Below, piece by piece: positions 7,172 through 55,052 of a stretch of DNA of 64,000 nucleotides. A program made the translations under genes and the position numbers. This stretch comes from Streptomyces asoensis. Its GTDB lineage: Bacteria; Actinomycetota; Actinomycetes; Streptomycetales; Streptomycetaceae. The DNA lies in contig NZ_BNEB01000002.1 in NCBI RefSeq assembly GCF_016860545.1, positions 124,001 through 188,000 on the forward strand, in the 5' to 3' direction. The first letter of the stretch is position 1. Each line of letters starts with the position of its first letter. A model generated the notes under the pieces. The model did not search any database and had not been told where the DNA came from. It saw nothing but the letters and a program-made list of their open reading frames with translations.

Positions 7172-8998
7172 TTACGGCTGGAAACGCAGGATCTGCGGGT
7201 CGTGGTCGCTGATCTGGTCGTGGAACTCCGAGTTGATGTGCACGCTGTCGTACTCGAAGTCGCCGTCGTGCTTGATCGAACGGCTCACCAGGATCTGGTC
7301 CAGGACCTGCTGGTTGCCCTGGTAGTCGTAGGAGTAACGCTCGTTCCTGGACAGCGACTTGATCGCCGACCAGAGCGTGCCGTCACCCTCGAGGATCTGC
7401 GCCGTGCCGGAGAACTCGAAGTCGTTGATGTCGCCCAGGGCGATCACGTCCGCCTTCTTCTCCACGGCGAGGATGTCCTTGACGAAGGCGTTGACCAGCG
7501 TCGCCTGCTGGTGGCGCTGCGTCTCCGAGCTGCGCACCACCGGCTGGTACTGCGAGGTCAGACCCTGGTCGCCGCCCTTGGAGTTGAAGTGGTTGGCGAT
7601 CACGAAGACCGTGCGGCCGCGGAAGACGAACTCGCCGACCAGCGGCTTGCGGCTGCTCGCCCAGGCGGTGTTCGCCGGGTCGATGCGGCCGGGGGAGGCG
7701 GTGAGCTGCGGGCGGCCCTGCACCTCGGTGACGCCGACGGCCGTGGTCGCGTTGCCGCCCGCGCGGTCCGTGAACGACACGCGCTGCGGGTTGAACAGGA
7801 ACACCTGACGGATGTTCCCGCCCGGCTCGCCGCCGTCGGTGTTGTTGGTCGGGTCGATCGAGCGCCAGTCGTACCGGGGGCCGCCCGCCGCCACGATCGC
7901 GTCGATCAGCTTGCCCACCGTGACGTCGGCGGCGGTCGTGCCGTCGTTCGTCGCGCCGTTGTTGTCCTGGATCTCCTCCAGGGACACGATGTCGGGCGAC
8001 TTCAGGTTGTTCACGATCGCGGCGGCGTGCTCCCCGAACGTGGCGTCGGACGGGTCGAGGTTCTCGACGTTGTACGTCGCGACCGCCAGTTCGTCCTTCT
8101 TCTGCTTGCGCGTCGACTCCCGCTCCAGGCCGCCGCTCTTCAGCGTGCCCAGCTGGTTCGCGACGAGCGTGTAGCCACCGAACTGGTTGTAGTCCAGCGG
8201 GCCCGAGGTGACGCCGGCGAGGGTGTCACCGACGTTCGCGACCGGGAAGTCGGCCGTCGCGCCGAGCGACTGGATCTGGAGCCGGCCGGTGTTCTGCGAG
8301 GCGTACGAGCCGTACAGCGTGCCACCGCGGCGGGTGTCGTTCTCGTGCGGCTTCACCGTGACCCACAGCTCGCTGTACGGGTCCGTGGCGGTGACCACGC
8401 CGGCGTCGGCGACCTGGACGTTCATGCCCTCGAGGGACTCGTAGTAGTCCAGGGCGTACGTGCCGGGCCGCAGGGTGAGACCGTTGACGGAGTTGTTGGC
8501 CGCGGGGTCGCCGGCCGGGGTGTACGCCGCCGGGACCGACTTCTTGTTCACCACGGTCGCGGCGGGCACCGCGTTGCCGCTGGACAGCACGGTGACCGTC
8601 GGCTTGGTGATCTCCGTGACCGACTGGTTGCCGGTCGAGACGCCGCCCGGGACGTACTCGGAGACCGTGCCGTTCACCGTGACGGAGTCGCCGACGGCGA
8701 CCTTCGGGGCGGAGCTGGTGAAGACGAAGACGCCCTCACTGGTGGCCGGGTCGGCGTCCGGGTTCGGATCCTGGATCCAGAAGCCCTTGGACGAGCCGTA
8801 GGTGCGCACGCCGGTGACGATTCCGGCCACACCCGAGACCGCCTGGCCGGCGTACGGCGACACCCGGGTGGTGCCCTGGATGTCGTGGACGGCCACCGTC
8901 TCCGCGTGGGCGGGCGTGGTGAGCGCGACGGTGGAGGCCGCGGAACAGGCGGCGGCGACGGTGAGCGCGGCGAGACGCGCGGACTTCTTGCTCGGCAA
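7172..8998 (-). CDS. Secreted ExeM/NucH-like endonuclease-exonuclease-phosphatase protein
   Basis: 608 residues from TTG 8998, which has GGAGGG 6 nt upstream on its own strand; an ATG at 9022 would add eight residues but has a poor RBS. A Sec signal peptide (KKSARLAALTVAAACSAAS, cut after PAHA) leads to an OB-fold-like domain (VSGVAGIVTGVRTYGSSKGFWIQD), then an EEP catalytic domain with TYNVENLDP, SLEEIQDN, NHFNSKGGDQG, LGDINDF and the terminal SDHDP. These are the Mg-binding and catalytic motifs. It likely degrades extracellular DNA for phosphate. It shares a promoter-region motif with another secreted phosphoesterase at 46.5 kb. Confidence 0.88.
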   Translation of the reverse strand: MPSKKSARLAALTVAAACSAASTVALTTPAHAETVAVHDIQGTTRVSPYAGQAVSGVAGIVTGVRTYGSSKGFWIQDPNPDADPATSEGVFVFTSSAPKVAVGDSVTVNGTVSEYVPGGVSTGNQSVTEITKPTVTVLSSGNAVPAATVVNKKSVPAAYTPAGDPAANNSVNGLTLRPGTYALDYYESLEGMNVQVADAGVVTATDPYSELWVTVKPHENDTRRGGTLYGSYASQNTGRLQIQSLGATADFPVANVGDTLAGVTSGPLDYNQFGGYTLVANQLGTLKSGGLERESTRKQKKDELAVATYNVENLDPSDATFGEHAAAIVNNLKSPDIVSLEEIQDNNGATNDGTTAADVTVGKLIDAIVAAGGPRYDWRSIDPTNNTDGGEPGGNIRQVFLFNPQRVSFTDRAGGNATTAVGVTEVQGRPQLTASPGRIDPANTAWASSRKPLVGEFVFRGRTVFVIANHFNSKGGDQGLTSQYQPVVRSSETQRHQQATLVNAFVKDILAVEKKADVIALGDINDFEFSGTAQILEGDGTLWSAIKSLSRNERYSYDYQGNQQVLDQILVSRSIKHDGDFEYDSVHINSEFHDQISDHDPQILRFQP

Positions 8999-18626: not shown

Positions 18627-19616
18627 CTACGGAACCACGACGATCTTGCGGCCGACGCCCGCCGCGAACTGCTCCAGCGCCCGCGGGTACTCCTCCAGGG
18701 GCACCCGGTCGCTGATGAAGACCTCCGGGTCCAGCACCCCGTTCGCGAAGAGCTCGGCGGCCCGCTCGAAGCTGTGCAGGACGGCCATCGAACCGGTGAT
18801 GGTGATCTCCTGGTTGTAGATGCGGTACGGGTCGACGGTGACCCGGGCCGCGTAGTCGGCGACGCCGAACTGGAGGAACGTGCCCGCCTTCGCCACCCGG
18901 CCCAGACCGTCCTGGATGGCCGCCGCGTTGCCGGTCGCGTCCACCACCACGTCCCAGCCGCCCGGCCGCTCCAGCTCGTCCGCGTCGGCCGCCGCCCCGG
19001 AGACACCGAGCCGGCGGGCCGTCTCCAGCCGGGCCGGGTTGAGGTCGACCACGTCCACGCTCGCCGCTCCCGTGCGCTTGGCGAGCTCCAGCATCATCAG
19101 CCCCATCGTCCCGGAGCCGTAGACCAGCACATGGGCGCCCAGCCGCGAGCGCAGCACGTCGTAGCCGCGCACCGCGCAGGACAGCGGCTCGATCAGGGCC
19201 GCGTCCTGGGTGCGGACGTGCTCGGGCAGCCGCACACAGTTCGCCACCGGCGCCACCGCGTACCGCGCCGCGCCGCCCGCCGTGGTCACGCCGATCGCGG
19301 CCCACCGCTCGCAGAGGTTGTTGTGGCCGGTGCGGCAGTAGCGGCACTCGTGGCAGTACAGGGACGGGTCCACCGCCACCCGGTCGCCCACCGACACCTC
19401 GGTGACCTGGGTGCCGACCCCCACGACCGCGCCCGCGAACTCGTGCCCGGGCACGATGGGCAGCTTCGGCGCGAACTCGCCCTGGAGGATGTGCAGATCG
19501 GTCCCGCACAGTCCGCAGGCGGCGACCTCCACGACCACCTCGCGCGGACCCGGCGTCGGGTCGGGGACCTCGGTGACGACGGCACGGCCCACGGACTCGA
19601 TGACGGCGGCCTTCAT
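18627..19616 (-). CDS. Zinc-dependent medium-chain dehydrogenase (polyol type)
   Basis: 329 residues, MDR superfamily. Catalytic zinc ligands appear as CGLCGTDLH and GHEFAG; the structural zinc cysteines are in CHECRYCRTGHNNLCER. The NAD-binding motif is VYGSGTMGLMM near residue 167. The sequence resembles sorbitol/threonine-type dehydrogenases. It is the last gene of a DeoR-ABC operon and overlaps the upstream permease by ATGA, so it most likely oxidises the imported sugar alcohol (sorbitol, mannitol or similar) to a ketose. The exact substrate is not readable. Confidence 0.88.
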   Translation of the reverse strand: MKAAVIESVGRAVVTEVPDPTPGPREVVVEVAACGLCGTDLHILQGEFAPKLPIVPGHEFAGAVVGVGTQVTEVSVGDRVAVDPSLYCHECRYCRTGHNNLCERWAAIGVTTAGGAARYAVAPVANCVRLPEHVRTQDAALIEPLSCAVRGYDVLRSRLGAHVLVYGSGTMGLMMLELAKRTGAASVDVVDLNPARLETARRLGVSGAAADADELERPGGWDVVVDATGNAAAIQDGLGRVAKAGTFLQFGVADYAARVTVDPYRIYNQEITITGSMAVLHSFERAAELFANGVLDPEVFISDRVPLEEYPRALEQFAAGVGRKIVVVP

Positions 19617-20437
19617 TTGACGGCTCCCAAGGACAGGCCCTGGACCAGTTTGTCCTGGGCGGCGAACCCCGCGGCGAGCACCGGCAGGGAGACGACGAGC
19701 GACGCGGCGCACACCTTCGCCAGGAACAGGCCCTGGCTGGTGATGAAGCCGGTCAGGAAGACCGGGGCGGTCTCGGCGACCACGCCCGTGAGCACCCGCG
19801 CGAAGAGCAGTTCGTTCCAGCTGAAGATGAAGCAGATCAGCGCCGTCGCGGCGATGCCGGGCAGGGCGACCGGGGCGACCACGCGCGCGAGGATCGTCGG
19901 CAGCCGTGCCCCGTCCACGCGCGCCGCCTCGATGATCGCCACCGGCACCTCGGCGAGGAACGACTGCATCATCCACACCGCGATCGGCAGGTTCATGGAG
20001 GTGTAGAGGATGACGAGCAGCCAGATGTTGTCGAGCATCCCGGCGTTCTTGGCGAACAGGTAGATCGGCAGCAGGCCGGCCACGACGGGCAGCATCTTGG
20101 TGGACAGGAAGAAGAACAGGACGTCCGTCCACTTGCGCACTGGCCGGATCGACAGCGCGTAGGCCGCCGGGAGGGCGAGGAGCAGGACGAACAGGGTCGA
20201 CGCCACCGACGCGACGGCCGAGTTGACCAGCGCGGGCCAGGGGCTCGCGCCGCCGCCGGTGCCGAAGAACTCGCGGTAGCCGTCCAGGGTGAGCGGCGCG
20301 GTGAAGGAGGGCGGGTTGGTCGCCGCGTCCTGTTCCGAGTGGAAGGACGTCAGGGCCATCCAGGCGACCGGCAGGAAGAACACGATGCCGCTCACCCACG
20401 CCAGCAGCCCCAGGCCGCCTCTGCGTACGGCGTTCAT
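19613..20437 (-). CDS. Sugar ABC transporter permease (MalG type)
   Basis: 274 residues, six membrane helices. The EAA loop EAARVDGARLPTILARVVAPVALPGI contacts the ATPase, and the C-terminus is short (QGLSLGAVK), as in MalG-like permeases. It overlaps both neighbours by ATGA. No ATP-binding subunit is encoded nearby; in streptomycetes the shared ATPase MsiK often serves such importers, which is an inference here. Confidence 0.9.
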   Translation of the reverse strand: MNAVRRGGLGLLAWVSGIVFFLPVAWMALTSFHSEQDAATNPPSFTAPLTLDGYREFFGTGGGASPWPALVNSAVASVASTLFVLLLALPAAYALSIRPVRKWTDVLFFFLSTKMLPVVAGLLPIYLFAKNAGMLDNIWLLVILYTSMNLPIAVWMMQSFLAEVPVAIIEAARVDGARLPTILARVVAPVALPGIAATALICFIFSWNELLFARVLTGVVAETAPVFLTGFITSQGLFLAKVCAASLVVSLPVLAAGFAAQDKLVQGLSLGAVK

Positions 20438-21372
20438 GGGCGGGACACCTCCTCGCGGAACAGGGACGACACGACCCGCAGGGCGAAGGTCGCGATGACG
20501 ATCGAGCCGATGACCACCAGGACGCCGGCGGCCGACGCGAGGCCGTTCTCGTGGGCCTGGTAGAAGCTCTGGTAGACGGTGTAGGGGAGGTTCGCGGTGC
20601 CGAGCCCGCCCGAGGTGATGGTGAAGACCGCGTCGAAGTTCTGGACGATGTAGACCGAGCCGAGCAGGGCGCCCAGCTCCAGGTAGCGGCGCAGGTGCGG
20701 GAGCGTCAGATGGCGGAAGATCTGCCAGTCGCTCGCGCCGTCCACCCGGGCCGCCTCGATCTGCTGCTGGTCCCGGCTCTGGAGGCCGGCCAGCAGGATC
20801 AGCATCATGAACGGCGTCCACTGCCAGACCAGGGAGGCCTCCACGGCGAGCAGCGGGGTGTCCGAGATCCAGTCCGGCTGGGGCCCGCCCACGTAGTGCA
20901 ACAGCCCGTTGAGCAGGCCGTATTCAGGGTTGTAGAGCACGTGTTTCCAGAGCAGGGCGGCGGCCACCGGGACGACCAGGAAGGGCGCGATCAGCAGGGT
21001 GCGGACCACGCCCCTGCCCCGGAACCGCCGGTCCAGGAGCAGGGCAAGGGCCAGCCCGAGCACCAGGCTGACCAGCACCACGGTCGCCGTCAGCAGGACG
21101 GTCGTCCACACGGAGTGGCGCAGGTCCGCGTCGGTCAGGACCTGGTGGTAGTTGTCGAACCCGGTGAAGCGGCGGGCCTTGGGGTAGAGGGCGTTCCAGT
21201 CGAAGAAGGAGATCACCACCGTCGCCACGAACGGCAGCTGGGTGACCACGATCATGAAGACCAGGGCGGGGAGCAGGGGCGCCCGGGTCGCCCAGGCGCG
21301 CAGGCGGGGGGACGGCGTGCGCGGGGCCTGTGCGGAGGGTGCGGCCACGGGGGCCGTGGTCGTCGCGGTCAT
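20434..21372 (-). CDS. Sugar ABC transporter permease (MalF type)
   Basis: 312 residues. A cytoplasmic Ala/Pro/Thr-rich N-terminus of about 30 residues precedes six helices. EAA loop: EAARVDGASDWQIFRHLTLPHLRRYLELG. It forms the heterodimeric channel with the MalG-type partner, with ATGA overlaps to both that gene and the binding-protein gene. Confidence 0.9.
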   Translation of the reverse strand: MTATTTAPVAAPSAQAPRTPSPRLRAWATRAPLLPALVFMIVVTQLPFVATVVISFFDWNALYPKARRFTGFDNYHQVLTDADLRHSVWTTVLLTATVVLVSLVLGLALALLLDRRFRGRGVVRTLLIAPFLVVPVAAALLWKHVLYNPEYGLLNGLLHYVGGPQPDWISDTPLLAVEASLVWQWTPFMMLILLAGLQSRDQQQIEAARVDGASDWQIFRHLTLPHLRRYLELGALLGSVYIVQNFDAVFTITSGGLGTANLPYTVYQSFYQAHENGLASAAGVLVVIGSIVIATFALRVVSSLFREEVSRP

Positions 21373-22739
21373 CGTCCCTCGTACTCCTCGGAGATCCGTT
21401 CGGCGAGCGCCTGCGACTTCTTCAGGGCCGACCCGACGGACTGGCGTCCGGCGATGGCCGCGCTGATCTCCTGGGAGACCTTGGTGCCGAGGTCGGTGAA
21501 CTCGGGGATGCCGACGAACTGGATGCCGGGCGCGGGGCGCGGCTGCGTTCCCGGATCGTTGGGCTTCGCCGCCTCGATGGCCCGCTTCGTCATGTCCTGG
21601 AAGGCGGAGGCCTCCTCGCGGTAGGCCGCGTTCTCGTAGGTGGACGCCCGTTTGCCGGCCGGGACGTTCGACCAGCCGGCCTTCTCGCCGACCAGCTGCT
21701 CGTACTCCTTGCCCGAGGCCCAGGAGACGAACTTCCAGGCCTTGTCGGCGTTGCGGGAGGCCTTCTGGATGCCCCAGGCCCAGGTGTAGAGCCAGCCGGA
21801 GGAAGCGGTCTTCTCGACGGGGGCCGGGGTGTAGCCGACCTTGCCCTTGACCGGTGACTTGTCCGCCTCCAGCGAGCCGGCCGCGGAGGTGGCGTCGTAC
21901 CACATGGCGACCTTGCCCTGGGTCATGTTGTTGAGGCACTCGGCGAACCCGGACTGCGCGGCGCCGGACTCGCCGTGTTCGCGGACCAGGCCGACGTAGA
22001 ACCTGGTCGCCTCCTCGAAGGCGGGCGAGTCGAGCCGCGCCTTCCAGTCCTTGTCGAACCAGGTGCCGCCGAAGGTGTTCACCACGGTCGTCAGCGGCGC
22101 CATCACCTCGCCCCAGCCGGGCAGTCCGCGCAGGCAGATGCCCTTCATGCCGGGCTCGGCGCCGTCGGTCCTGGCCGCGAGGTCGGCCACCTGCCGCCAG
22201 GTGGGACGGGCGGGCATCGTCAGGCCCTTCGCGGCGAACACGTCCTTGCGGTACATCAGGAAGGACGACTCGCCGTAGAAGGGCTGGCCGTAGAGCTTTC
22301 CGTCGTCCCCGGTGAGCGACTCGCGCATCGGCGTCAGGACGTCGCGCTCGTCGTAGGCGGGGTCCGCCGCCACGTACGAGTCCATGGCGTGCAGCCAGCC
22401 GTTGCGGGCGTAGATGGGTATCTCGTAGTTCGACAGGGTCGCCACGTCGTACTGGCCCGCCTGGTTGGCGAAGTCCTGGCTGATCTTGTCGCGGACGTCG
22501 TTCTCCGGCAGCAGGGTGAAACTGACCTTGATGCCGGTCTCCGCGGTGAAGTGGTCGGCGGTGAGCTTCTGCAACTCGGCCATCTGGGGGTTGTTGACCA
22601 TGAGGACGTTGAGGGAGTCGCCGCCGGAACCCGCCCCGCCGGCTCCGGCCCAGCAGCCGGAGAGCAGCGGGGCGAGCAGCGTCCCTGCGGCGACCGCGGC
22701 GAGTGTGGCTCGCGGCCTCCGTCGGCTCGGGGTGCGCAT
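21369..22739 (-). CDS. Extracellular solute-binding lipoprotein (polyol/sugar type)
   Basis: 456 residues. The N-terminus has basic residues, a hydrophobic stretch and a lipobox LLSGC (lipidated Cys near residue 29). The mature part is a cluster D/family 1 binding protein with SLNVLMVNNPQMAEL, YGQPFYGESSFLMYRKDVF and a long Trp-rich C-lobe, closest in pattern to sorbitol/mannitol-binding proteins. It is the first transport gene after the DeoR regulator (80-bp gap with AGGAG RBS) and heads the chain of ATGA-coupled genes. Confidence 0.9.
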   Translation of the reverse strand: MRTPSRRRPRATLAAVAAGTLLAPLLSGCWAGAGGAGSGGDSLNVLMVNNPQMAELQKLTADHFTAETGIKVSFTLLPENDVRDKISQDFANQAGQYDVATLSNYEIPIYARNGWLHAMDSYVAADPAYDERDVLTPMRESLTGDDGKLYGQPFYGESSFLMYRKDVFAAKGLTMPARPTWRQVADLAARTDGAEPGMKGICLRGLPGWGEVMAPLTTVVNTFGGTWFDKDWKARLDSPAFEEATRFYVGLVREHGESGAAQSGFAECLNNMTQGKVAMWYDATSAAGSLEADKSPVKGKVGYTPAPVEKTASSGWLYTWAWGIQKASRNADKAWKFVSWASGKEYEQLVGEKAGWSNVPAGKRASTYENAAYREEASAFQDMTKRAIEAAKPNDPGTQPRPAPGIQFVGIPEFTDLGTKVSQEISAAIAGRQSVGSALKKSQALAERISEEYEGR

Positions 22740-22819: not shown

Positions 22820-23590
22820 TCAGACCCTGATGACCTGGGGCCCCAGCAGTGAGTAGCGGTGGGCCTCGGCCGTCGGCAGGAGCGTGCTCGTCACGATCGC
22901 CTCCAGCGCGCCCACCTCGGCGAACCGGCAGAAGCTGACCGCCCCGAACTTGGAGTGCACGCCGGTGAAGACCACCCTGCGGGCGGCCCGCACGGCCTGG
23001 GTCTTGACCTCGCCGACGGCCGGGTCGGGCGTGGTCAGGCCGTGTTCGCGGGAGATGCCGTTGGCGCCGAGGTAGGCGAGGTCGACGACGAAGCCGGCCA
23101 GCATCTTCGTCGTCCAGTGGTCGACGGTGGCCAGCGTGCCCGGGCGGACCCGGCCGCCGAGCAGCAGCACGGACATGTTGTCGGTCCCGGCGAGCGCGCC
23201 CGCGACCGGCAGGGAGGCGGTGACCACGGTCAGCGGCCGGTCCCGGGGCAGCGCCTCGGCGATGAGCTGCGGGGTGAAGCCCTCGTCGACGAAGACGGTC
23301 TCGGCGTCCGCGAGCAGGGCGGCGGCCGCGGCGGCGATCCGGCGCTTCTCGGGCACGTGGCTGGTGGCGCGGAAGGCCAGGGTCGTCTCGAAGCCGGCGC
23401 TCTCCACGGGGTAGGCGCCGCCGTGCGTACGGCGCACCAGGCCGTGGTCCTCCAGGGCGCGCAGATCCCTGCGCACGGTCTCGCGGGCCACGCCGAGTTC
23501 GGCGGCGAGCGCGGCGACGTCGACCGAGCCGGTGGCCCGCGCGGTGCGCACGATCTCGCGCTGGCGCTCCTCCGCCGTCCTCGGGGTCAT
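22820..23590 (-). CDS. DeoR-family sugar regulator
   Basis: 256 residues. The N-terminal DeoR winged helix has ERQREIVRTARATGSVDVAALAAELGVARETVRRDLRALEDHGLVRRTHGGA. The C-terminal DeoRC sugar-phosphate sensor has VFVDEGFTPQLIAEAL and LGANGIS. It heads the operon followed by the binding protein, two permeases and the dehydrogenase, and should sense a phosphorylated intermediate of the imported polyol. Confidence 0.9.
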   Translation of the reverse strand: MTPRTAEERQREIVRTARATGSVDVAALAAELGVARETVRRDLRALEDHGLVRRTHGGAYPVESAGFETTLAFRATSHVPEKRRIAAAAAALLADAETVFVDEGFTPQLIAEALPRDRPLTVVTASLPVAGALAGTDNMSVLLLGGRVRPGTLATVDHWTTKMLAGFVVDLAYLGANGISREHGLTTPDPAVGEVKTQAVRAARRVVFTGVHSKFGAVSFCRFAEVGALEAIVTSTLLPTAEAHRYSLLGPQVIRV

Positions 23591-23853: not shown

Positions 23854-24663
23854 TCAGTACGGCCAGATCGGCGGGTCGCTGACGAAGTGGCCGCCCAGGC
23901 AGGCGTGGGCGATGTTCTCCGGGTCCAAGTCCCCCTGCTCGGCGATCAGCTTCTCGGCGTACGGCTCGGAGTCGTCCTGCGGGTCGTAGCCGAGTGCCCG
24001 CGCGGTGCTCAGGTCCCACCACAGCCGGGTGTTGGCGGACGAGCCGTAGACGACGGTGTGGCCGACGTCCTCGGCGGTCAGGGCCGCGTGGAAGAGGCGG
24101 GCGCCGTCGGCCGGGCTCATCCACACCGACAGCATGCGCACGCTTGTCGGTTCCGCGAAGCAGGAGCCGATGCGGACCGACACGCTCTCCAGGCCGTGCT
24201 TGTCCCAGTACAGCTGGGCGAGGTCCTCGCCGAAGGACTTGGACAGGCCGTAGAAGGTGTCCGGGCGGTGCGGGGTGTCGACCGGGATCAGGGGGTCGCC
24301 CTCGCCGGGGCGCGGGGTGAAGCCGACCGCGTGGTTGGAGGAGGCGAAGACGACGCGCCGCACCCCCTCCTCGCGGGCCGCCTCGTAGAGGTTGTACGTC
24401 CCCGCGATGTTGGCGGCGAGGATCTTCTCGAAGGGAGCCTCCAGCGAGATGCCCGCGAGGTGGACGATCGCGTCCACGCCCCGTACCGCCTCGCGGACCG
24501 CGTCCCGGTCGGCGAGGTCGGCGACGATCGCGTCCGGCGCGCCCTCGACCGGGCGCAGGTCGAGCAGCCGCAGCTCGTGACCGTAGGCGGGCAGCAGGTC
24601 CCGCATCAGGGTGCCGAGGCCGCCGGCTGCGCCGGTGAGCAGGACGGTACGCGGAGCGGGCAT
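23854..24663 (-). CDS. udh: Uronate dehydrogenase (NAD-dependent SDR)
   Basis: 269 residues, extended/atypical SDR. NAD-binding motif TGAAGGLG at the N-terminus; catalytic Tyr-x3-Lys in YGLSKSFGEDLA; substrate-side phrase VFASSNHAVGF and the terminal LWWDLS, all typical of uronate dehydrogenases. The reaction is D-galacturonate or D-glucuronate plus NAD to the aldaro-lactone, the first step of oxidative uronate catabolism. It diverges from kdgD across a 253-bp gap with repeated operator-like motifs, so the two steps are probably co-regulated. Confidence 0.85.
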   Translation of the reverse strand: MPAPRTVLLTGAAGGLGTLMRDLLPAYGHELRLLDLRPVEGAPDAIVADLADRDAVREAVRGVDAIVHLAGISLEAPFEKILAANIAGTYNLYEAAREEGVRRVVFASSNHAVGFTPRPGEGDPLIPVDTPHRPDTFYGLSKSFGEDLAQLYWDKHGLESVSVRIGSCFAEPTSVRMLSVWMSPADGARLFHAALTAEDVGHTVVYGSSANTRLWWDLSTARALGYDPQDDSEPYAEKLIAEQGDLDPENIAHACLGGHFVSDPPIWPY

Positions 24664-24727: not shown

Positions 24728-24893
24728 GTTCACATTCATGGACACGCTAGGGAGCGGCGGCCGTACCCGTCAAGTGTCCCGTGCACAGGGCAAAACTGCT
24801 GGTGTCTCGGGAGATTGCCCGCTTGACCCGGCTCGCCGGGGCGCCCTAGCGTGAGCTTGTTCAGGAATATGGACGCTGCTCAAGAATATGGAC
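24728..24893. promoter_or_regulatory. Three GTTCA...GGAC operator-like motifs between udh and kdgD
   Basis: GTTCACATTCATGGAC (24728-24743), GTTCAGGAATATGGAC (24859-24874) and GCTCAAGAATATGGAC (24878-24893) share GTTCA-N6-TGGAC, a partial dyad of IclR-like form. The last two are 19 bp apart, just upstream of kdgD; the first is 65 bp upstream of udh. A similar site (53447-53462) lies between iclR and the dioxopentanoate dehydrogenase gene. Confidence 0.6.
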
Positions 24894-24916
24894 CCGTTAT
24901 GGACCCGGGAGAGCCC

Positions 24917-25858
24917 GTGACGTCAGCCCCGCTCGCCGATCGCCTCCGCGTCCCCAGCGGACCGCTGTTCTTCCCCGTCACCGCCTACGGCCCCGACGGC
25001 TCCCTCGATCTCGACACCTACCGCGCGCACGTCCGCGCCGGCGTCGAGGCGGGCGCCGCGGCCGTCTTCGCGGCCTGCGGGACCGGGGAGTTCCACGCCC
25101 TCGACCCGGAGGAGTTCGAGGCCTGCGTGCGGGCCGCCGTGACCGAGACGGCCGGGCGGGTGCCGGTCGTCGCGGGCGCGGGCTACGGGACCGCGCTCGC
25201 CGTGCGCTACGCGCGGCTGGCCGCGTCGGCCGGGGCGGACGGCCTGCTCGCGCTGCCGCCCTACCTCGTCGTCGCCCCCCAGGAGGGCCTCCTGAGGCAC
25301 TACCGGGAGGTGGCGGCCGCGACCGCCCTGCCGGTGATCGTCTACCAGCGCGACAACGCCGTCCTCACCCCGGCCACCGTCGTGGAACTCGCGCGCACCG
25401 AGGGGATCATCGGCCTCAAGGACGGCCTCGGCGACCTGGACCTGATGCAGCGCACCGTCAGCGCCGTGCGCACCGAGGTCCCCGGCGACTTCCTCTACTT
25501 CAACGGCCTGCCGACCGCCGAACAGACCCAGCTCGCCTACCGGGCCCTCGGCGTCACCCTCTACTCCTCGGCCGTGTTCTGCTTCGCCCCCGAGATCGCC
25601 CTCGCCTTCCACCGGGCCCTCACCACCGGCGACGACACCACCGCCCACCGCCTCCTCGACGGCTTCTACCGGCCCTTCGTCGAACTGCGGGCCCAGGGCC
25701 GCGGTTACGCCGTCTCCCTGGTCAAGGCCGGGGTCCGGATGCGCGGCCTCGACGTGGGCGAAGTGCGCCCGCCGCTGCACGAACCGAGCGAGGATCACGT
25801 CAAACAGCTCGCCCAGGTGATCGAGCGCGGCCACGCGCTGCTGGAGGAGGACCGTTAA
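24917..25858 (+). CDS. kdgD: 5-dehydro-4-deoxyglucarate dehydratase
   Basis: 313 residues from GTG 24917, chosen because GGGAGAG lies just upstream; ATG 24899 or GTG 24851 would run into the operator repeats. DHDPS superfamily barrel with SGPLFFPVTAYGPDGSLD, CGTGEFHALD (the KdgD substrate loop) and the Schiff-base lysine in IIGLKDGLGDLDL. It dehydrates and decarboxylates 5-dehydro-4-deoxyglucarate to 2,5-dioxopentanoate. It diverges from udh and is followed with no gap by a gene of unknown function. The next enzyme, 2,5-dioxopentanoate dehydrogenase, is at 53.5 kb. Confidence 0.9.
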   Translation: MTSAPLADRLRVPSGPLFFPVTAYGPDGSLDLDTYRAHVRAGVEAGAAAVFAACGTGEFHALDPEEFEACVRAAVTETAGRVPVVAGAGYGTALAVRYARLAASAGADGLLALPPYLVVAPQEGLLRHYREVAAATALPVIVYQRDNAVLTPATVVELARTEGIIGLKDGLGDLDLMQRTVSAVRTEVPGDFLYFNGLPTAEQTQLAYRALGVTLYSSAVFCFAPEIALAFHRALTTGDDTTAHRLLDGFYRPFVELRAQGRGYAVSLVKAGVRMRGLDVGEVRPPLHEPSEDHVKQLAQVIERGHALLEEDR

Positions 25859-27034
25859 GTGAAGGCGTCGACATTCGTCTACCCCTGGGACGTCACCGGC
25901 GACCCGGGGGCGCCGGCCCGGATCGCCGCGCTCGGCGTGGAGCAGGTGACGCTCGCCGCCGCCTACCACTCCACGCGCGCCCTCACCCCCCGCCACCCGC
26001 GTCACCGCGTGGTCACCGCCGAGCACGCGGCCGTGCTGTACCCGGCGGATCCGGCCGGCGACCGCTGGAAGGGCCGCGCGCTGCGCCCCTACGCGGCCGG
26101 TGACTGGGCCCCCGGCGACGCCTACGGAGAGGCCGCCGAGGCACTCGCGGCGGCCGGGCTCGGCGTGCACAGCTGGGTGGTCCTCGCGCACAACTCCCGG
26201 CTGGGCGCCGAGCACCCGGACACCTCGGTGGTCAACGCCTACGGCGACCGCTACCCGTGGGCCCCCTGCATCGCCCAGCCCGCCACGCGCGCGTACCTCG
26301 TCGACCTCGCCGCCGAGGCCGCGGTACGGCCCGGCGCGGCCGGCACCGAACTGGAGTCCCTCGGCTGGTACGGGTTCCAGCACCTGCACGCCCACGACAA
26401 GACCGGCGGCGTCGGCCTCGGGGACGCCGGCCAGTACCTGATGGCGCTCTGCTTCTGCCCCACGTGCCGGGTCGGCTACGACGGACAGGGCCTGGACGCC
26501 GATGAACTGGCCGCCGCCGTACGGGCGGCGCTGGAACCGCTGTGGCGGGGCGCGCCGGACGGCGGGGGAGGCTGGACGGAGATCGAGAAACTCCTCGGGC
26601 AGGAGACGGCGGCGGCCACGCGCGCGTGGCGCGACGACAGGGCGCGCACGCTCCAGGAGACGGCGGTACGGGCGGTACGGGCCGCCGCGCCCGACGGCTT
26701 CCAGGTGCTGCTGCACGCCGATCCGGTGACGTACCACGTCGGCGCCAACCCGGGGGTCGACCCCGAGCACGTCCTGTCCGTCGCGGACGGAGTGGTCGTG
26801 CCCTGCGCGGGCGGTCCCGCTCTGCTCGCCCCGTTCGCCGCCCGGCGCCGCGAGGGCACGGTCGTCGCCGCCAACCTCGGCATCGTCTCCGGCATGGGCG
26901 GCAGCCCCGACACGCTCGCCGCCGACCTCGGGCGGGCACGCGACCTCGGGGCGACCGAACTGCGGCTGTATCACGCGGGACTGGCGTCGGACGGCGACCT
27001 CTCGGCGGTCCGCGCGGCGCTCGCCGGCCGCTGA
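25859..27034 (+). CDS. Unknown protein in the kdgD operon, probably a TIM-barrel enzyme
   Basis: 391 residues starting with GTG immediately after the kdgD TAA, with GGAGGAGG upstream, so co-transcribed. No signal peptide. Visible features: KASTFVYPWDVTG at the start, HSWVVLAHNSRLG, LGWYGFQHLHAHDKTG near 165, a cysteine pair CFCPTC near 200, and LGIVSGMGGSPDTL near the C-terminus. The layout suggests a (beta/alpha)8 barrel, perhaps glycosidase-like or a lactonase/isomerase of uronic acids. I do not recognise the family. The gene fits a missing step between uronate dehydrogenase and KdgD or a related sugar. Its 3' end overlaps the converging MFS gene by 64 bp. Confidence 0.75.
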   Translation: MKASTFVYPWDVTGDPGAPARIAALGVEQVTLAAAYHSTRALTPRHPRHRVVTAEHAAVLYPADPAGDRWKGRALRPYAAGDWAPGDAYGEAAEALAAAGLGVHSWVVLAHNSRLGAEHPDTSVVNAYGDRYPWAPCIAQPATRAYLVDLAAEAAVRPGAAGTELESLGWYGFQHLHAHDKTGGVGLGDAGQYLMALCFCPTCRVGYDGQGLDADELAAAVRAALEPLWRGAPDGGGGWTEIEKLLGQETAAATRAWRDDRARTLQETAVRAVRAAAPDGFQVLLHADPVTYHVGANPGVDPEHVLSVADGVVVPCAGGPALLAPFAARRREGTVVAANLGIVSGMGGSPDTLAADLGRARDLGATELRLYHAGLASDGDLSAVRAALAGR

Positions 27035-30012: not shown

Positions 30013-30693
30013 ATGACCTCTGTGCCCACGCCGATCCCCTCCCGCACGCAGTACGTGCTGGAGGAGATCAAACGCCGCATCCTCACCGGGCGGCTGACGC
30101 CCGGTCAGGCCCTGGTGGAGACCGAGCTCGCCGCGCAGTTCGGGGTCTCCAAGACCCCGGTCCGCGAGGCGCTCAAGACCCTGGCCGGCACCGGACTGGT
30201 CGTCATGAGCCAGTACAAGGGCGTCACGGTGCGCATGGTGGACGCGGACATGGCGCGCGAGGTCTACGACGTACGCCTGCTCCTCGAACCCGAGGCGCTC
30301 AAGCGGGCCGTGCGGCGCGGCGCCTCCCTGGACGCCGCGCGCGAGGCGCTGACCCGGGCCGACGAGGCGACCGACACCGCCGAACGGTCCCTGGCCAACC
30401 GGGAGTTCCACCGCGCCCTGTACCTGCCGTGCGGCAACCCGCTGCTCGGCCGCATGCTCGACGAGGTGCGCGACCAGGCCGCCCTCGTCTCCGCCGTCGC
30501 CTGGGCCGCCTCCCCCTCCTGGGACCGGGAGGCGGGCGAGCACCGCGAGATCCTGCGGCTCGCCCTGGCCGGCGACGCCGAGGCGGCGGGCGCCGCCCTG
30601 CACGCCCACATCGCGTCCTTCGTCCACCGGGCGTTCCCCGAGACCGCCCAGGAGGCCCCCGTGCGGGCCCAGGCAGAGAAAGGCCAGGAATGA
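30013..30693 (+). CDS. GntR-family (FCD) regulator of the sugar-acid cluster
   Basis: 226 residues. The N-terminal winged helix has RTQYVLEEIKRRILTGRLTPGQALVETELAAQFGVSKTPVREALKTLAGTGLV. The FCD domain follows with EFHRALYLPCGNPLL and EHREILRLALAGD. It overlaps the next gene by ATGA, so it is the first gene of a long operon. It should sense a sugar acid and release the dyads at 29939-29961. Confidence 0.88.
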   Translation: MTSVPTPIPSRTQYVLEEIKRRILTGRLTPGQALVETELAAQFGVSKTPVREALKTLAGTGLVVMSQYKGVTVRMVDADMAREVYDVRLLLEPEALKRAVRRGASLDAAREALTRADEATDTAERSLANREFHRALYLPCGNPLLGRMLDEVRDQAALVSAVAWAASPSWDREAGEHREILRLALAGDAEAAGAALHAHIASFVHRAFPETAQEAPVRAQAEKGQE

Positions 30694-31601
30694 GCAGCGT
30701 GGCGTTCGAGACCGAGCGAGCGGCCCTGGCCGACGTGGTGGCCATCCCGGTGACCCCGTTCGCCGAGGACGGCTCCGTCGACGGTGACGCCCACCGGGCC
30801 CTGCTGCGCCGGCTGCTCGACGGCGGCATCACCACCCTCACCCCGAACGGCAACACCGGCGAGTTCTACGCCCTGACGCCCGACGAGCGCCGGCTGGTCA
30901 TGGAGCTGACCGCCGAGGTGGCCGGCGGGCGGGCGGTGATCCTGGCCGGTGTCGGCCACGACGTGCCGACGGCCGTCGCCTCCGCCCGCCACGCCCGTGA
31001 ACTGGGCGCCCGGATGGTGATGGTCCACCAGCCCGTCCACCCCTACGTCTCGCAGCGCGGCTGGGTCGACTACCACCGCGAGATCGCGCTGGCCGTGCCC
31101 GAGCTGGGCGTCGTCCCGTACATCCGCAACGCCCAGCTGCACGGCGAGCGGCTCGCCGAACTGGCCGACGCCTGTCCGAACGTCATCGGCGTCAAGTACG
31201 CCGTCCCGGACGCCTCCCGGTTCGCGGCCTTCGCCCGGGACGCGGGCCTGGAGCGCTTCGTCTGGGTCGCGGGCCTGGCCGAGCCCTACGCCCCCTCCTA
31301 CTTCTCCGCGGGCGCCAGCGGATTCACCTCCGGGCTCGTCAACGTCGCCCCGGCCGTCTCGCTGAACATGATCGAAGCGCTTCGATCCGGCGACTACCCG
31401 GCCGCGATGAAGGTGTGGGAACAGATCAGACGCTTCGAGGAGCTGCGCGCCGCCAACGGCTCCGCGAACAACGTCACCGTCGTCAAGGAAGCCCTCGCGT
31501 CCCTCGGCCTGTGCCGCCGCGAGGTGCGCCCCCCGAGCCGGACGCTGCCCGAGGCCGATCGCGCCGAGGTCGCCGCCATAGCCGCCGGATGGTCCCTGTG
31601 A
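30690..31601 (+). CDS. DHDPS-family sugar-acid dehydratase/aldolase
   Basis: 303 residues. The DHDPS barrel has TPNGNTGEFYALTP (substrate loop), VPYIRNAQLHGERL, and the Schiff-base lysine in VIGVKYAVPD near residue 167. The GNTGEF loop and the next gene (IlvD/Edd dehydratase) point to the sugar-acid branch rather than lysine synthesis. A 2-keto-3-deoxy-pentonate (for example L-arabinonate-derived) dehydratase is the best guess, giving 2,5-dioxopentanoate; an aldolase is the alternative. Overlaps: ATGA upstream and GTGA downstream. Confidence 0.82.
   Translation: MSSVAFETERAALADVVAIPVTPFAEDGSVDGDAHRALLRRLLDGGITTLTPNGNTGEFYALTPDERRLVMELTAEVAGGRAVILAGVGHDVPTAVASARHARELGARMVMVHQPVHPYVSQRGWVDYHREIALAVPELGVVPYIRNAQLHGERLAELADACPNVIGVKYAVPDASRFAAFARDAGLERFVWVAGLAEPYAPSYFSAGASGFTSGLVNVAPAVSLNMIEALRSGDYPAAMKVWEQIRRFEELRAANGSANNVTVVKEALASLGLCRREVRPPSRTLPEADRAEVAAIAAGWSL
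31370..31387. promoter_or_regulatory. Intragenic 18-bp LacI-type palindrome
   Basis: GATCGAAGCGCTTCGATC is a perfect palindrome centred on AAGCGCTT, inside the DHDPS-family gene (codes for IEALRS). A second core, GAAGCGCTTC, lies at 31600-31609 over the start of the next gene, 230 bp away. The pair could support looping or roadblock by a LacI-family repressor. It may also be chance codon choice, but the perfect 18-bp symmetry argues against that. Confidence 0.5.
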
Positions 31602-33343
31602 AGCGCTTCGACGATCAACCCCGCAAACGGCCCGAGGACCTCAGAAGCCACCAGTGGTACGGCACCGACGGCCTGCGCTCCTTCAGCCACCGGGCCCGCA
31701 CCCGCCAGCTCGGCTACCTGCCCGAGGAGCACCTCGGCAAGCCGGTCGTCGCGATCCTCAACACCTGGTCCGACATCAACCCCTGCCACGTCCACCTGCG
31801 CGAACGCGCGCAGGCCGTGAAGCGGGGCGTCTGGCAGGCGGGCGGATTCCCGCTGGAGTTCCCGGTCTCCACGCTCAGCGAGACCTTCCAGAAGCCCACC
31901 CCGATGCTCTACCGCAACCTCCTCGCGATGGAGACGGAGGAGCTGCTGCGCTCCTACCCGGTCGACGGGGCGGTGCTGATGGGCGGCTGCGACAAGACGA
32001 CACCCGCGCTGCTCATGGGCGCGGCCAGCGTCGACCTGCCGACGGTCTTCGTCCCGGCCGGACCCATGCTGCCCGGTCACTGGCGCAACGAGGTCCTCGG
32101 CTCGGGCACCGACATGTGGAAGTACTGGGACGACAAGCGGGCCGGCCTCATCGGCGACTGCGAGCTGGCCGAGCTGGAGAGCGGCCTCGCGCGCTCGCCG
32201 GGCCACTGCATGACGATGGGCACGGCCTCCACGCTGACGGCCGCCGCGGAGGCGCTGGGCGTGACGGTGCCGGGCGCGTCGAGCATCCCGGCCGTGGACT
32301 CCGGGCACGACCGGATGGCGGCCGCCGCGGGTCTGCGCATCGTCGAACTGGTCCACCTGGACCGCAGGCTGAGCGAGATCCTCACCCGGGACGCCTTCGA
32401 GGACGCGGTGACGACCGTCCTCGGCCTCGGCGGTTCGACCAACGCGGTGATCCACCTGATCGCCATGGCGGGCCGGGCGGGCGTCACGCTCACCCTCGAC
32501 GACTTCGACCGCGTCGCCCGGACCGTCCCGGTCCTCGCCGACGTGCGGCCCGGCGGCCAGAAGTACCTGATGGAGGACTTCCACTTCGCGGGCGGCCTGC
32601 CCGGGTTCCTCTCCCGCATCCCCGACCTGCTCCACCTCGACCGCCCGACCGTCTCCCACGACACCCTGCGCGAGCAGCTCGCCGGCGCCCGGGTGCACGA
32701 CGACCACGTCATCAGGCGCCGGGACGACCCGGTGGCGGCCGAGGGCGGGGTCGCCGTACTGCGCGGGAACCTCTGCCCGGACGGGGCGGTCATCAAGCAC
32801 ATCGCGGCCGAGCCGCACCTGCTCAAGCACACCGGGCCCGCGGTCGTCTTCGACGACTACCGGACCATGCAGCGCACCATCAACGACCCCGGGCTGGGGA
32901 TCACCGCCGACACCGTCCTGGTGCTGCGCGGCTCCGGTCCCAAGGGCGGTCCGGGCATGCCGGAGTACGGCATGCTGCCCATCCCCGACCACCTGCTCAA
33001 GCAGGGCGTGCGGGACATGGTGCGGATCTCCGACGCCCGGATGAGCGGGACGAGTTACGGCACGTGCGTCCTGCACGTGGCACCCGAGTCGCACGTCGGC
33101 GGTCCCCTCGCCCTGGTGCGCACCGGGGACTCGATCACCCTCGACGTGGAGGCCCGCATCCTCCGGCTCGACGTCGACGACGAGGAGCTGGAACGGCGCA
33201 GGGCGCAGTGGACGCCCCCGCCCGTGCGCTACGAGCGTGGCTACGGCGCGCTCTACAACGAACAGATCACCCAGGCCGACACCGGCTGCGACTTCGAGTT
33301 CCTGGCCCGCGCGGGCAAGGTCGCGGACCCGTACGCGGGCTGA
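31598..33343 (+). CDS. IlvD/Edd-family sugar-acid dehydratase (pentonate type)
   Basis: 581 residues from GTG 31598 (GTGA overlap with the preceding stop); ATG 31589 is possible. [Fe-S] and Mg ligands are visible: WSDINPCHVHL, MGGCDKTTPALLMGA (carbamylated Lys and a Cys) and SPGHCMTMGTAST. DSGHDRMAAAAG and the C-terminal DARMSGTSYGTCVLHVAPES are typical of L-arabinonate/D-xylonate dehydratases. It makes a 2-keto-3-deoxy acid from an aldonate, followed by the DHDPS-family enzyme encoded upstream. The neighbouring GH43 and pectinases suggest arabinose from pectin side chains as the source. Confidence 0.85.
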   Translation: MKRFDDQPRKRPEDLRSHQWYGTDGLRSFSHRARTRQLGYLPEEHLGKPVVAILNTWSDINPCHVHLRERAQAVKRGVWQAGGFPLEFPVSTLSETFQKPTPMLYRNLLAMETEELLRSYPVDGAVLMGGCDKTTPALLMGAASVDLPTVFVPAGPMLPGHWRNEVLGSGTDMWKYWDDKRAGLIGDCELAELESGLARSPGHCMTMGTASTLTAAAEALGVTVPGASSIPAVDSGHDRMAAAAGLRIVELVHLDRRLSEILTRDAFEDAVTTVLGLGGSTNAVIHLIAMAGRAGVTLTLDDFDRVARTVPVLADVRPGGQKYLMEDFHFAGGLPGFLSRIPDLLHLDRPTVSHDTLREQLAGARVHDDHVIRRRDDPVAAEGGVAVLRGNLCPDGAVIKHIAAEPHLLKHTGPAVVFDDYRTMQRTINDPGLGITADTVLVLRGSGPKGGPGMPEYGMLPIPDHLLKQGVRDMVRISDARMSGTSYGTCVLHVAPESHVGGPLALVRTGDSITLDVEARILRLDVDDEELERRRAQWTPPPVRYERGYGALYNEQITQADTGCDFEFLARAGKVADPYAG

Positions 33344-36651: not shown

Positions 36652-37505
36652 TGGCCTCACAGCCATCCGACGCCCCGGTCGTGCTGCGTGTCGCCGGCCG
36701 CCCGGTCGCCCGCTACGTCATCCGGCCCGAGCTGCCCGCCCGGCTCTCGCCGCGCCCCTATCTGCATCCGGTCACCACCCTGGCCGGTACCGCGGTCACC
36801 GAGCTGAGCCCGGCCGACCACACACACCACCTCGGCGTCGGTGTAGCCGTACCCGACGTCGGGGGGCACAACTTCTGGGGCGGACGCACCTACGTCCGCG
36901 ACCGCGGCCCGACCGAGCTCGACAACCACGGCGCCCAGCGGCACAGTTCCTTCCAGCTCCGCGACCCGGACGGCTTCGTGGAGGAACTGCGCTGGGTCGC
37001 CTCGGGCACCGAACTGCTGCGGGAGCGGCGGACGGTGGCGGCCACCGAGCTCACCTCCTCCGCCTGGGCGCTGGACTTCACCTTCTCCCTCACCAACGTC
37101 ACCTCCGGCCCGCTGTCCATCGGCAGTCCGGCGACGAACGGCCGCCCCGGGGCGGCCTACGGCGGCTTCTTCTGGCGGGCCCGCAAGGAGGACGTCCCTC
37201 CCGAGGTCTTCACCGCCGGCACGCGGGGCGAACCGGCGGTCCACGGAGCCCGCGCCGACTGGATGGCCCTGGCCGGCGCCGACTGGACGCTCGTCTTCGC
37301 CGGGGCCACGAGCGTCACCCGGCGCGACCCCTGGTTCGTGCGCACCGGCGAGTACCCGGGCGTCGGCTCCTCGCTGGCCTGCGCGGAGCGACTGCCCTTA
37401 CCGCCCGGGGAGACGGCCGTACGCCGGATCGTCACCGTCGTCGCCGACGGCCGCCCGGACCGGGACGAGGCGGCGGCACTGGTACGGAAGGCGGTCAGCC
37501 AGTGA
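36651..37505 (+). CDS. DUF6807 / PmoA-like protein
   Basis: 284 residues. It matches the family labelled 'methane oxygenase PmoA' in databases, though it is not membrane-bound and not a monooxygenase subunit. Features: RPYLHPVTTLAGTAVTELSPADHTHHLGVGVAVPDV with histidines (HTHH), and YGGFFWRARK. Such beta-sandwich proteins travel with Gfo/Idh/MocA oxidoreductases and sugar transporters and may bind or epimerise a sugar; the biochemical role is not established. Coupled by TGATG and GTGA to its neighbours. Confidence 0.75.
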   Translation: MASQPSDAPVVLRVAGRPVARYVIRPELPARLSPRPYLHPVTTLAGTAVTELSPADHTHHLGVGVAVPDVGGHNFWGGRTYVRDRGPTELDNHGAQRHSSFQLRDPDGFVEELRWVASGTELLRERRTVAATELTSSAWALDFTFSLTNVTSGPLSIGSPATNGRPGAAYGGFFWRARKEDVPPEVFTAGTRGEPAVHGARADWMALAGADWTLVFAGATSVTRRDPWFVRTGEYPGVGSSLACAERLPLPPGETAVRRIVTVVADGRPDRDEAAALVRKAVSQ

Positions 37506-53522: not shown

Positions 53523-55052
53523 GTGGCAGCAGCACCAGTCTGGAGTGTCGACCCCCGAACCGGGAAGCAGCGTGAACAGGTTGCGGTGGAGGCCACGGCC
53601 CAGGAGGTCGACGCCGTCGTCCGCGCCGCCCACGAAGCGCGCGGCTTCCTCGCCGACCGCACCGTGCGCGCCGCCTTCCTGCGTTCCGCCGCCGACCGGC
53701 TCCAGGCGGCCAAGGACACGCTCGTGGAGGTGGCCGACGCCGAGACGGCGCTCGGCCCGGTCCGGCTGACCGGCGAGCTCGCCCGCACCTGCTACCAGCT
53801 GCGCGCGTTCGCCGACATCGTCGACGAGGGCGCCTTCCTCGACGTCGTCATCAGCCACCCCGACGACACCGCGACCCCGCCCATCCCCGACCTGCGCCGC
53901 TACAAGGTGCCGCTCGGGGTGGTGGCCGTGTACTCGGCGTCCAACTTCCCCTTCGCGTTCTCCGTCGCCGGCGGGGACACCGCGAGCGCGCTCGCGGCGG
54001 GCAACCCGGTCGTCGTCAAGTCCCACCCCGACCACCCGGGGCTGTCCGAGCTGGTCGCCAAGGTGGTGCGCAACGCCGCCGCCGAGCACGGCATCCCGGC
54101 GGGGGTGCTGGGTCTGGTGCACGGCTTCGAGGCCGGCGTCGAGCTGATCAAGCACCCGCTGGTCGCCGCGGCCGGTTTCACCGGCTCGATCCGGGGCGGG
54201 CGCGCGCTGTTCGACGCGGCGGCGGCCCGGCCGGTGCCGATCCCGTTCCACGGCGAGCTGGGTTCCCTGAACCCGGTCGTGGTGACCGAGGCGGCCGCCG
54301 CCGAACGGGCCGAGACCATCGGCAGCGGCCTCGCCGGGTCCATGACGCTGGGCGTCGGCCAGTTCTGCGTGAAGCCCGGGCTGGTCCTGGTGCCGTCCGG
54401 CGCGGCGGGCGACGGACTGGTCAAGTCGCTCACCGACGCGGTGAGCGACACCGACGCGGGCGTGCTGCTCGACCACCGGATGCGCGACAACTTCATCGCC
54501 GGCGTCGCCGAGCGGGCCGGGCTGCCCGACGTGGAGTCGCCGGTGACGCCCGGCGCGGGCGGCGAGCACACGGTCAGCGCGGGCTTCCTGACCGTGCCGG
54601 CCTCCCGGCTGGCCGCCGAGGGCGCGCACGACCTGCTGCTCGAGGAGTGCTTCGGCCCGGTCACCGTCGTGGCGCGCTACGACGACGAGGGCGAGGTCAA
54701 GGCGGTGCTGTCGCGTCTGCCCGGCAACCTCACCGCGACCGTCCAGCTGTCCGAGGAGGAGGCCGCGGGCGAGGGCCGGGGCGGCGAGATCCTCGCCGAA
54801 CTGACCCCGCTTGCCGGGCGCGTGCTGGTGAACGGCTGGCCCACGGGTGTCGCCGTCGCGCCGGCCCAGCACCACGGGGGGCCGTACCCGGCCACCACCT
54901 CGACGTCCACCTCGGTCGGCGGGACCGCCATCGAGCGGTGGCTGCGGCCGGTCGCCTACCAGAACGCCCCCGCGGCGCTGCTGCCGGTGGAGCTGCGCGA
55001 CGAGAACGAGCTGGGGCTGCCGCGGCGGTTCAACGGGCGGTTGGAGCGGTAG
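53523..55052 (+). CDS. 2,5-dioxopentanoate (ketoglutarate semialdehyde) dehydrogenase
   Basis: 509 residues from GTG 53523 (GAGGG at 7 nt); an in-frame GTG at 53508 lies on the RBS. Aldehyde dehydrogenase superfamily, KGSADH-like branch: SASNFPFAFSVAGGDTASALAAG (cofactor cleft), catalytic Glu in HGELGSLNPVVV and nucleophile Cys in GVGQFCVKPG. It oxidises 2,5-dioxopentanoate to 2-oxoglutarate with NAD(P). This is the last step shared by the kdgD route and the pentonate route encoded elsewhere in the window. Confidence 0.86.
   Translation: MAAAPVWSVDPRTGKQREQVAVEATAQEVDAVVRAAHEARGFLADRTVRAAFLRSAADRLQAAKDTLVEVADAETALGPVRLTGELARTCYQLRAFADIVDEGAFLDVVISHPDDTATPPIPDLRRYKVPLGVVAVYSASNFPFAFSVAGGDTASALAAGNPVVVKSHPDHPGLSELVAKVVRNAAAEHGIPAGVLGLVHGFEAGVELIKHPLVAAAGFTGSIRGGRALFDAAAARPVPIPFHGELGSLNPVVVTEAAAAERAETIGSGLAGSMTLGVGQFCVKPGLVLVPSGAAGDGLVKSLTDAVSDTDAGVLLDHRMRDNFIAGVAERAGLPDVESPVTPGAGGEHTVSAGFLTVPASRLAAEGAHDLLLEECFGPVTVVARYDDEGEVKAVLSRLPGNLTATVQLSEEEAAGEGRGGEILAELTPLAGRVLVNGWPTGVAVAPAQHHGGPYPATTSTSTSVGGTAIERWLRPVAYQNAPAALLPVELRDENELGLPRRFNGRLER

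Follow-up and report, generated by a model that had tools for sequence, protein, structure and literature searches.

The uronic acids burned by the genes of oxidative uronate pathways come from plant matter, and aldaric acids are sought bulk chemicals that are made with uronate dehydrogenase (UDH). The lactonase UxuL belongs to the SMP-30 family, whose fold is a beta-propeller. The families of Gli and Gci, two enzymes of Agrobacterium, both have TIM-barrel domains. Among GH42 glycosidases, a four-cysteine zinc site is found but is not universal.

According to passages of PMC4476818, the UDH of Streptomyces viridochromogenes was assayed and prefers glucuronate over galacturonate. The product of UDH is an aldarolactone (passages of PMC4476818 and PMC6353982). 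In passages of PMC6353982, UxuL and UxuF are described as opening 1,5-lactones, and the isomerase Gli and the cycloisomerase Gci of Agrobacterium as acting on the UDH product; a title cited there places Gli in the amidohydrolase superfamily. Aldarolactones also open spontaneously, as stated in a passage of PMC5703739. For the GH42 enzyme Gal42, passages of PMC8573354 give Cys113/153/155/158 as the zinc site (one passage prints Cys11), Glu148 as the acid/base and Glu305 as the nucleophile.

The window is the whole stretch of DNA that was analysed, 64,000 nucleotides from Streptomyces asoensis (contig NZ_BNEB01000002.1, positions 124,001 to 188,000). The following features are used below.

19613–22739, minus strand: binding-protein gene and two permease genes of a sugar ABC transporter, lying past the DeoR gene; homologues recur in the loci of relatives
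22820–23590, minus strand: DeoR-family regulator adjoining udh, from profile matches
23854–24663, minus strand: udh, the uronate dehydrogenase gene, which diverges from kdgD and the gene in question; its product is close to uronate dehydrogenases of solved structure (PDB 3rft, E 4.7e-67; 3ay3, E 2.3e-73)
24851–25858, plus strand: kdgD, 5-dehydro-4-deoxyglucarate dehydratase (NF002958, 439.5 bits against a cutoff of 278)
25843–25851, plus strand: Shine-Dalgarno-like GGAGGAGGA within the 3' end of kdgD, read directly from the sequence
25859–27034, plus strand: the gene in question, encoding a 391-aa (beta/alpha)8-barrel protein, GH42/GHL10-like by profiles and model, a candidate aldarolactonase
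53586–55046, plus strand: aldehyde dehydrogenase, a candidate alpha-ketoglutarate semialdehyde dehydrogenase (52% identity to the enzyme of a Nonomuraea udh-kdgD-gudD operon)

Genes were called with a crude GC-frame heuristic, and those named from it alone are marked "by eye". Among the ABC transporter genes, the permease at 19613–20467 was profile-tested (PF00528) and the other two were named by eye. The kdgD product scores 322.6 bits against TIGR03249, under the cutoff of 373.95.

The start codon of the gene is GTG, and GGAGG, contained in GGAGGAGGA, lies about 8 nt ahead of it. The kdgD stop codon TAA occupies 25856–25858 and the GTG begins at 25859, so that the spacing is zero. The gene is translationally coupled to kdgD, and in 58 of the 79 Streptomyces loci with kdgD upstream the two genes overlap by 4 nt. 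The sequence-only reading had described a 391-residue product with the phrases HLHAHDKTG, CFCPTC and SGMGGSPDTL, "directly fused" to the kdgD operon with zero spacing. The reading frame, the three phrases and the abutment were all recovered; "fused" is too strong a word, because these are two separate reading frames that abut. In a nucleotide comparison with the relative in locus L002, 19, 23 and 57 differences fall on first, second and third codon positions, which on this sequence evidence is the pattern expected for a selected protein. This third-position bias, the existence of relatives and their wide occurrence mark 25859–27034 as a genuine coding gene.

One scan of genome contigs yielded 229 relatives, and 80 with 76–90% identity were kept. 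In a sample of the genus, 232 of the 295 Streptomyces genomes had a match. Matches to the family were also found in 150 plasmid records, 112 of them from Rhizobium and the others including haloarchaeal plasmids and one from Alicyclobacillus. No relative was found in the viral contigs scanned. The family is widespread, occurring in Actinomycetota, on rhizobial and haloarchaeal plasmids and on a plasmid of Bacillota. The 391-aa product has no match above cutoff in Pfam (a TetR_C_30 match with E 0.012, below cutoff, was dismissed as chance), none in NCBIfam, and no PDB chain at E ≤ 1 with phmmer; no paper on the gene was found in the open-access literature searched. The family thus appears to be unnamed in the libraries searched, in line with the earlier remark that no family was recognised, and no clear match to a family unrelated to carbohydrate metabolism was seen.

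More distant similarity was recognized with profiles. A profile of 12 sequences matches Cwp19 (5oq2) with E 2.5e-4 over profile positions 70–176. Weak matches to GHL10 (PF02638) were found in 4 of the 12 members (best E 0.023, none for the window protein, none above the Pfam gathering score), weak matches to GHL6 in 2 of 12, and weak matches to DUF4838 in single members. The AlphaFold2 model is an eight-stranded barrel with mean pLDDT 75.0 and pTM 0.77. It was built from an alignment of 45 close sequences with 76–89% identity to the window protein, and residues 37–85 are poorly modelled (pLDDT under 50) because the alignment holds close relatives only. The top structures from Foldseek and VIA-align were GH42, beta-amylase, PgaB, Cwp19 and GH35 barrels, with Z 23.0 for the GH42 protein 5xb7_E (rmsd 3.1, 299 aligned residues), 21.7 for 1kwg and 20.9 for Cwp19. 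In a single hhalign comparison, the 56-row family alignment matched four GH42 proteins encoded by the S. asoensis genome with Prob 95.6 and E 1.1e-8, and C137 and the CxCxxC motif were paired with GH42 cysteines. Sequence profiles and the model together place the protein in the (beta/alpha)8 glycoside-hydrolase superfamily, nearest to GH42, PgaB and Cwp19. Structure prediction and a fold search had been proposed with the sequence-only reading, which had not foreseen a glycoside-hydrolase-type barrel with a GH42-like cysteine tetrad.

The likeness to the GH42 beta-galactosidases (PDB 5xb7, 1kwg) extends from the barrel to the cysteines, with one Cys between beta3 and beta4 and a CxCxxC after beta4 and before beta5, as in the zinc site of GH42, and perhaps to a Glu directly after beta4. 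The four cysteines C137, C198, C200 and C203 (C198-x-C200-xx-C203) occur in every one of the 56 rows and form a putative metal site. E166 directly follows strand 162–165 (beta4) and is kept in all 24 clade-A rows and in 30 of the 32 clade-B rows of the tree described below; H37, H111, H175, H179 and K181 are found in the same 24 clade-A rows. Unlike in GH42, Leu instead of Asn precedes the beta4 Glu, and E166 and the GH42 Glu do not coincide in the hhalign alignment. No acid is seen at residues 336–345, the end of beta7 (strand 335–341), in any of the 24 clade-A rows, and a single acid, at 335, occurs among these rows over residues 334–345. Thus, the GH42 nucleophile is missing and the protein is not a GH42. 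It also has 391 residues instead of about 700, and PF02449 (GH42) gave no match at E ≤ 1 for the window protein or the 12 profile members. In comparison with Cwp19 (PDB 5oq2/5oq3) and the GHL10/GHL6 models, no Pfam match is significant alone, and the window protein lies in a catabolic operon and has no evident signal peptide (by eye). It likewise has no match to the SMP-30 model PF08450, and its modelled barrel differs from the beta-propeller of UxuL. It differs from Gli and Gci in lacking a sequence match to the amidohydrolase models and, at E ≤ 1, to MR_MLE_N/C (PF02746/PF13378) of the enolase superfamily, which neighbouring genes of relatives do match.

The fold raises the chief alternative to a pathway enzyme. 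An intracellular uronidase would act on an imported glycoside, such as an aldobiouronate, to release glucuronate or galacturonate for UDH, with E166 as the acid/base and a mechanism that is inverting or otherwise unlike that of GH42. Its possibility, which we consider rather doubtful, rests on the glycosidase barrels that top the structure lists, on the hhalign and Cwp19 profile matches, on the sugar ABC transporter of the Streptomyces locus, a type able to carry oligosaccharides, and on the glycosidase genes (GH2-like, GH38, fucosidase) that neighbour the relative of locus L126. The absence of any acid at 336–345 leaves it without a nucleophile of the GH-A type, and the gene contexts argue against it on further points, described below.

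In a tree of 56 rows, the family is divided into two clades of 24 (A) and 32 (B) rows with support 100/99 and some long branches. The window protein belongs to clade A. Association with udh, the glucarate dehydratase gene (gudD) and kdgD is confined to this clade. Among Streptomyces loci, a divergent udh adjoins the gene in 80 of 80 and kdgD lies directly upstream in 79 of 80, so that the possibility raised earlier, that homologues might never be found beside kdgD, does not hold. The exception is L074, where udh is beside the gene and kdgD is absent; in L296, which also lacks kdgD, the gene is still beside udh. Among the 12 clade-A loci not of the Streptomyces type, a gudD homologue (at least 46% identity) directly adjoins the gene in 11, udh lies within the fetched stretch in 8, and udh, gudD, kdgD, an aldehyde dehydrogenase gene and the gene in question occur together in 6 (L127, L178, L181, L201, L202, L204). 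The core order in L202 is aldehyde dehydrogenase, gene, gudD, kdgD, IclR, udh, and this core includes no other lactonase candidate. The reading frames of gudD and the gene overlap or abut in several loci (L178, L195, L199). Six gudD-type proteins were scanned; five match TIGR03247 with E 1e-69 to 1e-75, below its equivalog cutoff, and therefore "glucarate dehydratase" is a subfamily-level assignment; the sixth, in L200, is another member of the enolase superfamily. Membership of the gene in a uronate/aldarate pathway, as the sequence-only reading had supposed, is well supported by these independent gene orders from several actinobacterial families.

Such tight gene-order binding to udh, gudD and kdgD would not be expected of a glycosidase. 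Uptake systems near clade-A genes vary among a sugar ABC transporter (binding protein in L198), a TRAP system (L195) and an MFS sugar porter (L202). The TRAP and MFS systems, as carriers of the monomer type, are more in keeping with a pathway enzyme than with the uronidase.

The remark that no lactonase or aldarate dehydratase is visible nearby holds for the operon, and both gudD and SMP-30 genes are encoded elsewhere in the genome. The gudD of S. asoensis lies on another contig (55% identity to the Nonomuraea gudD), in an operon with a second kdgD (kdgD'), an IclR-type gene (by eye) and an MFS gene. This separate gudD-kdgD' operon contains no copy of the gene in question, which places the gene on the uronate side of glucarate.

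Co-occurrence across genomes was counted with relatedness ignored. Among Streptomyces genomes of the class sample, udh is present in 27 of 27 with the gene and 5 of 13 without it (Fisher p 1.7e-5), the 27 including G218, which has a weak gene fragment and only a 44% identical udh match. A kdgD orthologue (at least 70%) was found in 23 of 26 gene-bearing genomes and in 1 of 32 that lack the gene (Fisher p 6.5e-12), a count that left out 12 genomes, mostly with distant or partial copies only. An unlinked gudD was found in 49 of 51 Streptomyces genomes with the gene and in 5 of 21 without it (Fisher p 6.3e-10), 43 of the 49 being close and 6 only about 40% identical. Many UDH matches of 43–50% identity adjoin phosphomannomutase- or nucleoside-phosphorylase-like genes (by eye) and are probably not UDH; for this reason, no ratio was taken over all 97 matches.

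The co-occurrence with unlinked gudD speaks for a gene that works alongside GudD and not in its place. This bears on a cycloisomerase or dehydratase that would take the lactone straight to the KdgD substrate and bypass GudD, as Gci-like enzymes would. With such an activity the Streptomyces operon of udh, kdgD and the gene would be a complete route, and gudD was not detected at E ≤ 1e-30 in two of the 51 gene-bearing genomes (G620, G870). The adjoining gudD in other genera and the unlinked gudD in Streptomyces stand against it, as does the lack of an enolase-superfamily match in Pfam or NCBIfam, and we regard it as very improbable. An aldarate-dehydratase role is unlikely for the same reason of gudD co-occurrence. 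The sequence-only reading had suggested a lactonase or cycloisomerase, or an aldarate dehydratase; the lactonase is retained as the best guess and as a candidate only, and the other two options are weakened.

The 391-aa protein is the best candidate at the locus for aldarolactone opening, a step without a known gene there. In the six complete operons, lactone opening is the sole unassigned reaction and the gene product is the sole unassigned enzyme, which favours a lactonase; so do the gene order, the absence from the glucarate operon and the monomer-type carriers of L195 and L202. We tentatively propose for the gene product the role of a cytoplasmic aldarolactone hydrolase in the oxidative uronate pathway, a function that is plausible and somewhat short of probable. 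The proposed reaction, opening of glucaro- or galactaro-1,5-lactone between UDH and the dehydratase, would be that of UxuL and UxuF as described in passages of PMC6353982. UDH would oxidise D-glucuronate or D-galacturonate to the aldaro-1,5-lactone, which the 391-aa protein would open, yielding glucarate or galactarate. Dehydration of the aldarate would fall to GudD, whose gene lies elsewhere in Streptomyces genomes and adjoins the gene in question in other genera. KdgD would then produce alpha-ketoglutarate semialdehyde, and the aldehyde dehydrogenase would complete the route. The substrate would bind at the C-terminal mouth of the barrel, where Glu166, at the end of beta4, may be the general acid/base. 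Asp11 and three conserved histidines (His37, His111 and His179) would assist it, and the lactone carbonyl would be attacked by water. The tetrad C137/C198/C200/C203 may hold a structural zinc, as in GH42.

In L285 and L286, which have udh and lack the gene, an SMP-30 gene lies immediately upstream of udh, and in L287 it is about 4 kb away; as SMP-30 is the family of UxuL, the adjoining genes of L285 and L286 may be counted for the lactonase. The SMP-30 search covered 76 genomes, 17 of them chosen as gene carriers, and in 0 of these 17 was an SMP-30 gene seen within 15 kb of the main udh (by eye); in the carrier G784, one lies some 4 kb from a second SDR gene of 44% identity. A rule that every udh operon has either the gene or SMP-30 failed, with neither the gene nor a lactonase nearby in four actinobacterial udh-kdgD-gudD loci (L267, L273, L288, L291). 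Streptomyces G064 also has udh-kdgD and gudD without the gene. Together, these cases indicate that a lactonase is not obligatory. In G069 (L295, 8387–9355), udh and kdgD are intact and the adjoining copy of the gene is split between two reading frames; recent loss of the gene is therefore tolerated in at least one Streptomyces. The lactone-opening step may be dispensable, and the spontaneous opening of aldarolactones counts against the proposed lactonase. The modelled fold, which is that of glycosidases and of no known lactonase, also counts against it, as do the gene-bearing genomes G620 and G870, in which gudD was not detected.

The same context would suit an isomerase that acts without hydrolysis, either on the lactone (1,5 to 1,4) or on the uronate anomer as a mutarotase for UDH. 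Lactone isomerization of this kind is described for Gli of Agrobacterium in a passage of PMC6353982, and the conserved acid and histidines would suit proton transfer. An isomerase would leave the pathway incomplete, as GudD requires the open acid, and with no sequence match to amidohydrolase models it is judged unlikely.

Clade B shows other contexts. Neither udh nor kdgD nor a gudD homologue of at least 46% identity was found in any of the 30 clade-B loci examined. The neighbours include RidA, D-serine-dehydratase-like, D-aminoacylase-like, creatininase, DUF1343, enolase-superfamily and other genes. These unrelated-looking contexts are unexplained by a narrow lactonase function and count against it. 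They would suit a family that handles diverse sugar-acid or amino-acid conjugates, with the clade-A protein acting on another uronate-derived or conjugated substrate or serving as a non-catalytic sensor. The full conservation of catalytic-looking residues in clade A and the fixed place in the udh operon speak against this, and we consider it improbable.

For the family as a whole, the following is possible and offered with reserve. A GH42-type glycosidase barrel may have lost its nucleophile, with the zinc site and the beta4 Glu retained, and turned into a ring-opening hydrolase. Clade A would then comprise aldarolactonases of a fold unrelated to UxuL/UxuF, and clade B enzymes that hydrolyse other small derivatives of sugars or amino acids. 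If a glycosidase barrel that lacks the usual nucleophile does serve as a lactonase, this would be a clear case of enzyme repurposing. A lactonase would also account for lactone opening in the oxidative breakdown of uronates by Actinobacteria. With aldaric acids made by use of UDH, a lactonase that works with a Streptomyces UDH would be useful. A uronidase, in turn, would found a glycosidase family with an unusual catalytic site. The lactonase proposal gives a very common unnamed Streptomyces gene a precise candidate function.

Several further observations were made. The window contains a second sugar-acid cluster at 30013–33343 (GntR-type regulator, DHDPS-family aldolase and IlvD/Edd dehydratase), which recurs near the operon in most Streptomyces loci among the matches listed and is also close in L261, where udh has no adjoining kdgD, and in L176. 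In the latter (7628–8845, Streptomyces G913), the copy of the gene has moved off udh and kdgD and now lies by this cluster, and udh and kdgD are together elsewhere in the genome. At 36661–37505, a DUF6807-like product (by eye) is encoded beside Gfo/Idh-like and GH43-like genes. The plasmid relatives in the tree are L124–L126 only, and the remaining plasmid records were put in clade B by resemblance. The clade-B relatives on Rhizobium plasmids in L124 and L125 (11992–13173) have an amino-acid ABC transporter and an RraA-like gene on one side and a RidA/alanine-racemase/amidohydrolase/sugar-ABC cluster on the other. The haloarchaeal relative in L302 (2968–12682) lies amid two DUF1343 genes, a serine hydrolase gene and a creatininase-family gene, a set that resembles those for muropeptide use.
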